From Firmicutes bacterium HGW-Firmicutes-14 (GTDB taxonomy: Bacteria; Bacillota; Thermincolia; Thermincolales; UBA2595), in contig PHAB01000009.1 of NCBI GenBank assembly GCA_002840275.1, positions 62,001 to 126,000 of the forward strand: a stretch of 64,000 nucleotides of DNA, given 5' to 3'. Made by a program: the position numbers and the translations under genes. Below the pieces are notes generated by a model. That model was not told the DNA's origin and made no database searches. It worked only from the letters and a program-made list of their open reading frames with translations. Positions 6,682 through 50,744 of this stretch are shown here, in pieces. How positions within the stretch are numbered: position 1 is the stretch's first letter; each line of letters starts with the position of its first letter.

Positions 6682-6700
6682 AGAGAACTCTTACCTTAGC

Positions 6701-6780
6701 TGCAACCTGGCAATCATAACCGGTGACCCGGCCGTAGACCCATAGTTTTGCGTCCTTCACTTTCGCGAAGTTTGCCCATT
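6701..6780 (-). promoter_or_regulatory. Cyclic di-GMP-I (GEMM) riboswitch aptamer
   Basis: On the minus strand the GEMM-I core is clear: GGGCAAAC, a short hairpin with GCGAAAGT, GGACGCAAAAC, TATGGGTCTACGG, ACCGGTTATG, then GATTGCCAGG closing P1. These correspond in order to the conserved blocks of Vc2 (GGCAAACC, GAAA tetraloop, GGACGCAAAGCC, tetraloop-receptor strand). A terminator lies 20 bases downstream. Because the P1 3' strand can pair with the terminator loop, ligand binding should free the terminator, giving an OFF switch; this direction is inferred. An AT-rich stretch with TATAAT lies just upstream. Confidence 0.88.
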
Positions 6781-7068
6781 ATATGTATTATATATATCGG
6801 TAGAATTTTCAATTTTCTTTATACTTATTATTCGCTATAGTACTACATTTTCCTTCTAACATACGGGAGAGTAAACAGTAAAAAACATCAGATATCCGGT
6901 AATTTAGGGCTAAAATGCCGGATAGCGGGGATAAAATGCGGTTTTTAGGGGTTAAAAAACCGGAAAACCAGGTCGACAACATGGAATAAAAAAAGGACTG
7001 TAATAATTTATGTCGAAGAAATAAATATAGCCCTTTCAATCCCTTATTTAAACTTCAGGATGAAAGCG

Positions 7069-29789: not shown

Positions 29790-29916
29790 CACAAAGCAAC
29801 TCCCTTGCCACGCTTACGAGGTTAGCTGACGGATTCGGAAGGAAGAGTCTCCCTACCCACCAAGTGGGATTCACCCCGAGATTTGGTTCCCCCGCTTCTA
29901 AAAAAGAATTAAGCGT
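29790..29916 (-). promoter_or_regulatory. Cyclic di-AMP (ydaO/yuaA) riboswitch
   Basis: On the minus strand the conserved blocks appear in order: AGAAGCGGGGGAACCAA, CGGGGTGAATC, TGGGTAGGGAGACTC, CCGAATCCGTCAGC, and TAACCTCGTAAGC. These are the strongly conserved joining regions of RF00379. A TTGACC/TATAAT promoter lies upstream and a terminator downstream. ydaO switches turn genes off when c-di-AMP binds, and usually control potassium, osmolyte or wall-hydrolase genes. The exact 3' border is approximate. Confidence 0.92.
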
Positions 29917-29940
29917 ATCTCCGTATATATTATTATCAAT

Positions 29941-48213: not shown

Positions 48214-48579
48214 TCAACGGGATTTTCCCAAATCTTTCTGATATTCCGGCATCTGCTGCTGCTTAAAAAACATCCCTACGCCAAGATTCACTCCTATCCC
48301 CACAGGCCATAACTTTTTGTGGGTCTCCAGTGGGATAAACACAGAGAGTATAATCAGGACAATTGTCCCCATTATACTCCACTTTATGATGTTTCCGGCT
48401 TTTTCGGGGTGACCCAGGCGCCGCCAGTTTACTGCAGCCAAAACCGCCCCAAACAGGAAATGAGGGATTGAAACCAGCAGCACAACCACCGGGTTTATCA
48501 TTTTTTTTTGCACCCCATGGGTGACAACCGCTCCATGGTTTTTTTTGCCTGAGGATGTCTTTTTGCGACCGGAAGCCAT
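48214..48579 (-). CDS. Two- or three-helix membrane protein
   Basis: 121 aa. A basic N-terminus (ASGRKKTSSGKKNHG) precedes hydrophobic segments (VVVLLVSIPHFLFGAVLAAV; IIKWSIMGTIVLIILSVFIP; WPVGIGVNLGVGMFF). ATG at 48579 has GGGAGG upstream. First gene of the set leading to nth. Function unknown. Confidence 0.7.
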   Translation of the reverse strand: MASGRKKTSSGKKNHGAVVTHGVQKKMINPVVVLLVSIPHFLFGAVLAAVNWRRLGHPEKAGNIIKWSIMGTIVLIILSVFIPLETHKKLWPVGIGVNLGVGMFFKQQQMPEYQKDLGKSR

Positions 48580-48701
48580 CGGTAACCTCCCAGGTTTCAT
48601 TATTAGTCTTACGATTCTATATTATACCAAAAAATCGCTCTGTAAAACACTCCATACAAAGCATAAAATCCCCGGCCGGGGATTTATTGGTTTTGCACAG
48701 A

Positions 48702-49103
48702 TTAAAAGTCCCGTAAATTATACCTGTAATTCCAGGAATATATGTAGGCAAAAATATTGTATAAAGCCAGATAAGCAGAAACATAAAACATTGCCCCAAA
48801 GGTGCCTTCTTTTAATAACATCATTATAACTAATAATGAACTGCACAGAAATGCCCCTGTCCCCAGGGTAAATAAACCAAGGCCCCACATCCGCCTGTTA
48901 TACATTCCATATGCACCCAGAATCACCGGCACCACTGCAGTGATGGTGACAGGGACGGCAAAGTCTCCGACATCCCCCGCAATTCCGATATCCTTCAAAA
49001 AACTGCTTCCCAGCAGGACAAAATGTACCAGGGTAATAAAAGAGTTTATAACAGCTATGTTAATTACAAATTTAAATGTGGCGCTTCTCCTGTCATTGAA
49101 CAA
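48702..49103 (-). CDS. Four-helix membrane protein
   Basis: 133 aa with four likely membrane spans (INIAVINSFITLVHFVLLG; AVPVTITAVVPVILGAYGM; LGLFTLGTGAFLCSSLLVI; FYVSAYLALYNIFAYIYSW). TTG start with GGAGG upstream. No family recognised; monocistronic. Confidence 0.7.
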   Translation of the reverse strand: MFNDRRSATFKFVINIAVINSFITLVHFVLLGSSFLKDIGIAGDVGDFAVPVTITAVVPVILGAYGMYNRRMWGLGLFTLGTGAFLCSSLLVIMMLLKEGTFGAMFYVSAYLALYNIFAYIYSWNYRYNLRDF

Positions 49104-49485: not shown

Positions 49486-49653
49486 TGGCACCGGCTGGAT
49501 TACGTGGCCGCACAGAAAGCAGCAGGAACCCTGCCGGAGGTATTTGTCATAAAAAGGATAACTCTTCATTTATATACCGCCTCCCGAATATAATGTTCGC
49601 GCTGCCCTGGCCAAGTACCTGCACTCATCGGAACGAACATAGACGGATACTAG

Positions 49654-49690
49654 AAAAAAAGGGGGTCTCATATGCAAATGGGGCCCCCCA
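49654..49690 (-). terminator. Rho-independent terminator after the ferredoxin gene
   Basis: Minus strand GGGGGG...CCCCC hairpin followed by seven T. Confidence 0.75.
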
Positions 49691-49712
49691 TATTAATTCA
49701 GCCTCTTAGCAA

Positions 49713-49901
49713 TTACTCTTCTTTTATGGCGGCAGTAGGACACCCTTCGACAGCCTCATGGGCACACTGCTCTTTATCCTCGGGAACTTCACTTATCTTG
49801 GCTACGGCCTTGTCTTCATCGCCCCATTCAAAAATATCCGGGCAGGTGGTAATACATGCTCCACAACTGATACACAGGTCATCAAATACTTCAACTTTCA
49901 T
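49713..49901 (-). CDS. 4Fe-4S ferredoxin, single-cluster type
   Basis: 62 aa acidic electron carrier. CISCGACITTCP (~10-21) plus GCPTAAI (~54) give the four cluster ligands; a further Cys at ~46 (EQCAHEAVEG) may form a disulfide as in monocluster clostridial/thermophile ferredoxins. It lies 68 bases downstream of the HMA selenoprotein gene on the same strand. Confidence 0.93.
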   Translation of the reverse strand: MKVEVFDDLCISCGACITTCPDIFEWGDEDKAVAKISEVPEDKEQCAHEAVEGCPTAAIKEE

Positions 49902-49969
49902 TGCGTTTTCTCACTCCTCGGTCCAATAGTATATTACTTTGACTTTTTTCGTGTATATTATAGTCCCTT

Positions 49970-50524
49970 CTATGGGGATTTATTCAGCCGGCCTCCCACA
50001 TCACCCAGAACTTTTCGTACACCCGGAAATATAATTACATCACTTACCGCCTGTCTGAATTCTTCACCCAGGGGCCGTTCAGCTCGATAATTAATTTCAA
50101 ACTGTTCACGGGCGGGGTGAAAATCGATGTTTTGCACCGCCTTAAACCCTTCCAGGGTTTGTCTGACCCTTTTCACTCATCCACCACACAGCAGGCCGGT
50201 CACATTCAGCACAGCCGTCCGCCGGCCGTCTTCTGTTTCGGAGTCCGCCGAAACCGTTACCTGGGGATTAACCCAGACATTATGCATCCCAGGACCCCGG
50301 GAGTGGAAACAAAGGGAATCCTGCCCATTACCTGAACCAGAATTTTGGGAATTATCCACTGCCCTTGCAGCTGCGACAAAAGGTATACTTACAAAATCCT
50401 CAAACATATCAACCATTAGTTTGGCATTGGTGTTTTTATCATCAATCAATCCCCGCACAAACTTGAGGGGAAGCAGTGCGAAAGACTGGCTTAAACCAAT
50501 ATATTCCCTGATGACTTCCCGCAT
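49970..50524 (-). CDS. Probable selenoprotein: HMA (heavy-metal-associated) domain with CxxU
   Basis: 184 aa if TGA at 50177-50179 is read as selenocysteine. The frame is open on both sides: residues 1-115 end in TAVLNVTGLLCGG, then U116, then VKRVRQTLEGFKAVQNIDFH. Joined, this is a standard HMA domain whose metal motif CGGC is CGGU. A 17-base hairpin, AAACCCT-TCC-AGGGTTT on the plus strand, starts 16 bases after the TGA, with G in its loop, as in bacterial SECIS elements. The first ~70 residues are a helical domain of unknown type (IREYIGLSQSFALLPLKFV). GAGGTG precedes the ATG. Role in metal or selenium/redox handling is inferred. Confidence 0.82.
50144..50160 (-). other. Candidate SECIS hairpin for the HMA selenoprotein
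   Basis: On the coding strand AAACCCT-GGA-AGGGTTT, a 7-bp stem with a 3-base loop beginning with G. The loop starts 23 bases after the UGA, inside the range seen for bacterial SECIS elements. Confidence 0.7.
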
Positions 50525-50545
50525 TATTCTTCACCTCACCCACAT

Positions 50546-50580
50546 GTTTTACCGGCACGGCTGACGTGCCCCGGTAAAAC
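50546..50580. repeat. Inverted repeat in the selenoprotein leader
   Basis: GTTTTACCGG-CACG-GCTGA-CGTG-CC-CCGGTAAAAC, a ~14-bp stem with a 2-base bulge, 21 bases upstream of the selenoprotein start. It could be a regulator operator, an RNA stem near the start, or a weak terminator of upstream transcription. Confidence 0.7.
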
Positions 50581-50640
50581 TATTATTCCCCAGGGGAAGG
50601 TATACATGTAACCGGCGACAAGGCATAAACTTGTCCTGAA

Positions 50641-50693
50641 AAACAGCAAAGTATACTGCCGCCTCCTGCAAATATTGGAGGGACAGTATACTT
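50641..50693. terminator. Terminator after the aldo/keto reductase
   Basis: AAGTATACTG on each side of a CTCC/GGAG inner stem; on the minus strand it is followed by TGCTGTTTTTC. Confidence 0.7.
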
Positions 50694-50744
50694 ATAAAAA
50701 TCTTTTCAGGGACGTCATATTTAATTTCTGCCGGGAATCCTGAT

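Follow-up and report, generated by a model that had tools for sequence, protein, structure and literature searches.

A candidate family of selenocysteine-containing HMA-domain proteins recognised through a conserved in-frame UGA

On the minus strand of the window (the whole stretch of DNA analysed, 64,000 nucleotides from Firmicutes bacterium HGW-Firmicutes-14), two open reading frames, 50177-50524(-) and 49970-50176(-), join into one frame through a TGA, which raises the question of whether this codon ends a gene or encodes selenocysteine (Sec) and, if the latter, what kind of protein is made (Table 1). A sequence-only reading, made without database searches, had described two same-frame ORFs parted only by the TGA, a split at the second Cys of an HMA metal motif (giving CGGU) and a 7-bp hairpin 16 bases 3' of the TGA, and had proposed a selenoprotein; each of these descriptions proved accurate. 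The joined frame, 49970-50524(-), runs for 184 codons with a single internal stop, the TGA at 50179-50177 (codon 116), around which the joined protein reads LLCGGUVKRVRQTLEGF. Because seven TGA-joined frames of such size (at least 100 plus at least 60 codons) occur in the 64-kb window, the geometry by itself is unremarkable and the case rests on comparison. The evidence that rises above chance is conservation, namely the shared TGA column, the pN/pS values on both sides of it and the covariation of the hairpin.

Table 1. Coordinates of the features assigned or predicted at the locus.
Feature	Position	Strand	Details
Joined selenoprotein gene (predicted)	49970..50524	-	184 residues, Sec at 116
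UGA read as selenocysteine (CGGU; predicted)	50177..50179	-	TGA at this column in 17/17 members
bSECIS-like hairpin	50144..50160	-	7-bp stem, 50154-50160 with 50144-50150; loop GGA, 50151-50153
N-terminal two-helix domain (residues 2-61)	50342..50521	-	model pLDDT about 70; no library match
Extra strand (residues 88-98) before HMA core	50231..50263	-	part of conserved NxxVNPxV motif; model
HMA domain (residues 105-161)	50042..50212	-	PF00403, 31.5 bits; structure model
One-cluster ferredoxin downstream, possible electron donor	49713..49901	-	Fer4_13, 52 bits; adjacent in 9/9 loci of this order

A search of 61 genomes with the single protein recovered, apart from the window copy, ten homologues that all hold a single in-frame TGA, together with a few weak HMA-type matches. 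Searches with two profiles, covering 398 genomes of the phylum (other phyla were outside the scope), brought the family to 17 members from the family-level groups f1, f2, f4, f34, f35, f39, f66 and f75. The TGA and the first Cys are invariant in all 17, with the motif occurring as CGGU (nine members), CDAU, CGLU and CFLU (two). Four members (L053, L056, L057 and L058) have CxxxU (CYSVU twice, CYSLU and CYTLU), a spacing unusual for an HMA motif. Every member continues past the TGA, where termination in all of the homologues would have refuted the sequence-only reading. The weakest member was found at E = 3e-31, followed by matches no better than 5e-11 that cover the HMA core only and lack the TGA; most of these sit in frames of 820–970 residues, which are read as P-type ATPases from their length and HMA content. 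One expectation failed: homologues with CGGC had been predicted, but no close Cys homologue occurs between these two E-values in the 398 genomes searched with the two profiles, and Cys is found at this position only in distant, ordinary HMA domains. For the nine full-length members pN/pS was 0.42 before the TGA and 0.36 after it, and by this measure purifying selection acts alike on the parts before and behind the TGA. A search of genome contigs returned no match with the single protein and five records with the alignment (the named ones Bacillota, most of them Thermincola), class-level searches around G122 and G117 took in only 3 genomes each, and the plasmid collection searched held no match.

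The stem of the hairpin begins 16 nt after the UGA, placing the loop about 23–24 nt after it. The published bSECIS model calls for a stem-loop lying 16–37 nt from the UGA and bearing a G within the first two nucleotides of the loop (PMC13188914); the window hairpin meets the rules for loop position and loop G, and a G is present in the loop in 17/17 members. The isolated hairpin (−7.1) falls short of the energy rule of that model (−7.5 kcal/mol), which the 53-nt fold (−11.2) satisfies, and the fold of the window hairpin taken by itself is weak and not significant (z = −1.56). Across the family, the hairpin is kept with covarying pairs: 86% of cells in the pairing are paired, double changes occur in 6/8 pairs, the covariation score was reached by 0/500 shuffles, and the score of 0.41 fell to at most 0.19 when the partner was slid by one column. 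In 17/17 members the local 27-nt fold has greater stability than synonymous recodings have on average (1000 recodings; mean z = −1.77), with the best 27-nt fold differing from the hairpin in L029, L057 and L059. As the members are related, the selection, hairpin and fold statistics are not independent tests. An Rfam scan of positions 49500–50700 gave no match at E ≤ 1.

The genes selA, selB, selC and selD, which the sequence-only reading had left to be looked for, are all present in the genome (99.96% complete): SelA scored 639 bits, SelB 351 bits and a tRNA-Sec with anticodon TCA 75 bits, and two SelD homologues were over the cut-off. The latter form a pair of selenophosphate synthetase genes that both hold an in-frame TGA (G000:C15:219296-220216 and G000:C4:9543-10460; L010 and L011). 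Within the phylum, selA was over the cut-off in 16/17 carriers of the family compared to 36/51 non-carriers (Fisher p = 0.05), a weak association, given how common Sec use is in the phylum; the lone carrier without selA over the cut-off is a genome that is 75% complete. Machinery, homologues reading past the TGA and conserved hairpin together support the selenoprotein interpretation on comparative grounds, without peptide or 75Se data. There is very little doubt that the locus is a single selenoprotein gene, in which the UGA at codon 116 would be decoded as Sec by SelB and tRNA-Sec, aided by the hairpin behind it.

HMA domains are a textbook thiol metal site, with MxCxxC as the canonical metal motif. 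The match of PF00403 to the joined protein exceeds the cut-off of 24.8 bits and places the TGA at the second Cys of this motif, as had been claimed. MxCxxC itself is absent from the family, which has [LI]CxxU or [LI]CxxxU with the Met replaced by Leu or Ile (Leu in the window protein), and two CxxxU members miss the PF00403 cut-off (L056, 20.4 bits; L058, 19.1 bits); the domain is read as HMA-derived with an altered motif. An AlphaFold2 model built with the 17 sequences (mean pLDDT 72, pTM 0.47) orders the protein as a two-helix hairpin, a disordered linker, the strand at residues 88–98 and an HMA-like core (pLDDT about 90), in which a helix takes the position of the fourth HMA strand. The strand at 88–98 may substitute at the edge for this missing strand, an inference drawn only from the order of elements in the model. 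Foldseek returned many weak matches, with HMA domains (Menkes domain 3, Ccc2a and MerP) among the first; matches to RNA polymerase subunit L and gyrase were taken as shared topology, not homology. The helical N-terminal domain, about 60 residues long, is present in 9 members, while the 8 short members begin just before NxxVNPxxxV. It had been called unfamiliar, and indeed no library model matched it, though a profile search found weak stand-alone relatives in G050 and G118. That the members constitute a Sec-containing HMA protein family with a Cys–Sec active pair is held with nearly the same assurance as the decoding of the gene, though without protein-level evidence of Sec.

The genes around the family offer some indication of its role. 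A ferredoxin lies directly downstream on the same strand at all loci with the gene order of the window, and ferredoxins adjoin the gene in 11/17 members (9 downstream loci and 2 FixC/FixX loci), the latter being those of G117 and G118, where FixC-like and FixX-like genes lie upstream of the Sec-HMA gene. The adjacency in the Thermincolaceae sits in a long conserved stretch of gene order and represents few independent events. Genes of the mer, ars or P-type ATPase kinds were not recognised beside the Sec-HMA gene. Two small hydrophobic proteins without a family above cut-off, 48214-48600(-) and 48702-49103(-), are kept downstream of the gene in most relatives of the window's family. Elsewhere in the window are two riboswitches, c-di-AMP (ydaO/yuaA) at 29795-29925(-) and c-di-GMP-I at 6698-6786(-), both well above the Rfam gathering scores.

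In the f39 and f66 genomes (4 loci), the Sec-HMA gene is flanked by two small genes that profile comparison identified as the halves of one protein of ~120 residues, ‘twin WxxMG’; every searched genome of the window's family encodes this protein at another locus. No Pfam or NCBIfam model matches it. Twin WxxMG was found in 13/17 carriers and 1/381 other genomes (Fisher p = 4e-20, uncorrected for kinship), the single non-carrier (G006) being 63% complete. Because gene neighbourhood, fusion and co-occurrence come together, a functional link between the Sec-HMA protein and twin WxxMG is likely. The protein is glycine-rich, with examples of the split halves at L067:933-1238 and 1735-2031 and of the fused form at L114:4327-4674 (G000 contig C46). 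Between the halves, the Sec-HMA gene lies on the opposite strand in L068, L069 and L070 but shares their strand in L067, as though a single gene had been inverted in place. Near the fused gene (L114–L119) are a Met/Pro-rich unknown protein, a rubrerythrin-like protein and a NapC/NirT-type multihaem cytochrome, and a rubrerythrin-like gene also stands beside the Sec-HMA gene in L053 (L053:1580-2158).

A selenolate at an HMA ligand position is expected to bind soft metals tightly and to cycle easily between redox states. In the mechanism proposed, the HMA-fold domain would bear a Cys–Sec pair (CGGU) where an ordinary HMA domain has CxxC, the ferredoxin encoded next door (FixC/FixX-like proteins in two other lineages) would keep this pair reduced, the selenolate might bind, and perhaps reduce or transfer, a soft metal or metalloid, and the small helical twin WxxMG protein would act together with the Sec-HMA protein. 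This function, a ferredoxin-reduced pair handling a soft metal(loid) with twin WxxMG, is inferred throughout, metal binding included, and is put forward tentatively, with doubt slightly outweighing belief. The substrate is a guess, since the neighbourhood of the gene shows no recognised mer, ars or P-type ATPase gene. The protein could instead be purely a carrier or buffer of soft metals, in which Sec binds Hg, Cu or Ag more strongly than Cys would and no redox turnover takes place; this remains a genuine possibility, if the less probable one, given that the fold is that of HMA, that Sec and Cys occupy both metal-ligand positions and that known HMA-related selenoproteins bear mercury or metal protein names (PMC13188914). 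It sits less easily with the loss of the motif Met to Leu or Ile, the CxxxU spacing in four members and the neighbours, which are ferredoxins or FixC/FixX rather than any recognised metal pump or mer gene. That Sec is strictly retained and that the neighbours are ferredoxins or FixC/FixX slightly favour a redox role over pure metal carriage. The fullest version of the redox reading, an obligate-Sec HMA family that has a ferredoxin-driven Cys–Sec redox centre and, with twin-WxxMG and perhaps rubrerythrin-like proteins, makes up an as yet undescribed anaerobic module to handle or detoxify a soft metal(loid), is rather doubtful as a whole.

Explanations that deny Sec at the TGA fare far worse. 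Two separate proteins could arise by termination at the TGA and restart at the GTG, a possible start, directly behind it in the window, but other members have GTT, GTC or GTA as the codon after the TGA, and L059 has AGT, such that the start is not conserved; the split would also cut the HMA domain within its first helix, and the hairpin covaries, leaving restart highly improbable and here rejected. Equally hard to credit is the insertion of another amino acid, such as Trp, or unspecific readthrough, for which there is nothing but the in-frame UGA itself, against a complete Sec system, a UGA that replaces the motif Cys, a hairpin at the right distance and the many other frames of the window that UGA terminates. 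Stop-split genes are often pseudogenes, but a TGA common to 17 loci from 17 genomes and the constraint on the codons behind it rule out, to near certainty, decay or sequencing error.

A gene finder that applies the standard code would break the gene into two false ones in every carrier, and annotation seems to have overlooked a whole small family of proteins. The apparent use of Sec with no close Cys version suggests that the selenium chemistry is essential to the family; for want of a close Cys homologue, the classical test of pairing Sec with Cys forms is satisfied against distant HMA domains alone. The Sec-HMA protein allows a direct test of Sec versus Cys at a thiol metal site, and the finding draws attention to a partner protein, as yet uncharacterised, whose distribution nearly matches that of the family.

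Novelty was assessed against NCBIfam release 20 (June 2026) and Table 1 of PMC13188914, a 2026 catalogue of 119 selenoprotein families, and no matching family was present in either; a description of an HMA CxxU family was not found in the papers searched. NCBIfam release 20 holds two HMA-related selenoprotein models, NF041115 and NF045683, and Table 1 of PMC13188914 lists no HMA CxxU families aside from MerT-type proteins, to which the present family, having no MerT match, does not belong. The window protein scored 25.6 bits for NF041115 (cut-off 95; other members at most 32), and scores for NF045683 were at most 22.5 bits (cut-off 375). As the scores are far below these cut-offs and Table 1 has no such entry, this is a new selenoprotein family, as the sequence-only reading had suggested, within known kinds (selenoprotein, HMA) and for the libraries searched. 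Scores for MerP (TIGR02052, at most 28.2 vs 92.55) and CopZ (NF033795, at most 29.9 vs 91) were likewise below the cut-offs.

Among known systems, NF041115 (UxxU metal-binding (seleno)protein), the ‘putative mercuric reductase’ of PMC13188914 Table 1, is likewise small and HMA-like and carries Sec within its metal motif, but has two Sec (UxxU) in a 74-position model, whereas in the window family Sec follows Cys in the motif, a strand precedes the domain and many members carry the helical N-terminal domain. NF045683 (MerT/CopZ fusion-like heavy metal transport selenoprotein) and the MerT selenoproteins (PF02411, C/SxxU) share a Sec-bearing motif and an HMA-like part with the window family, which is without the MerT membrane part. 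The CxxU redox selenoproteins (SelW-like and AhpD-like; PMC13188914 Table 1) have the CxxU motif in common with it, but their folds differ. CopZ, MerP and the HMA domains of P-type ATPases (PF00403) possess the same fold and the same two ligand positions, from which the window family departs in having Sec for the second Cys, Leu or Ile for the Met, an added strand before the core and a helix in place of the fourth strand.
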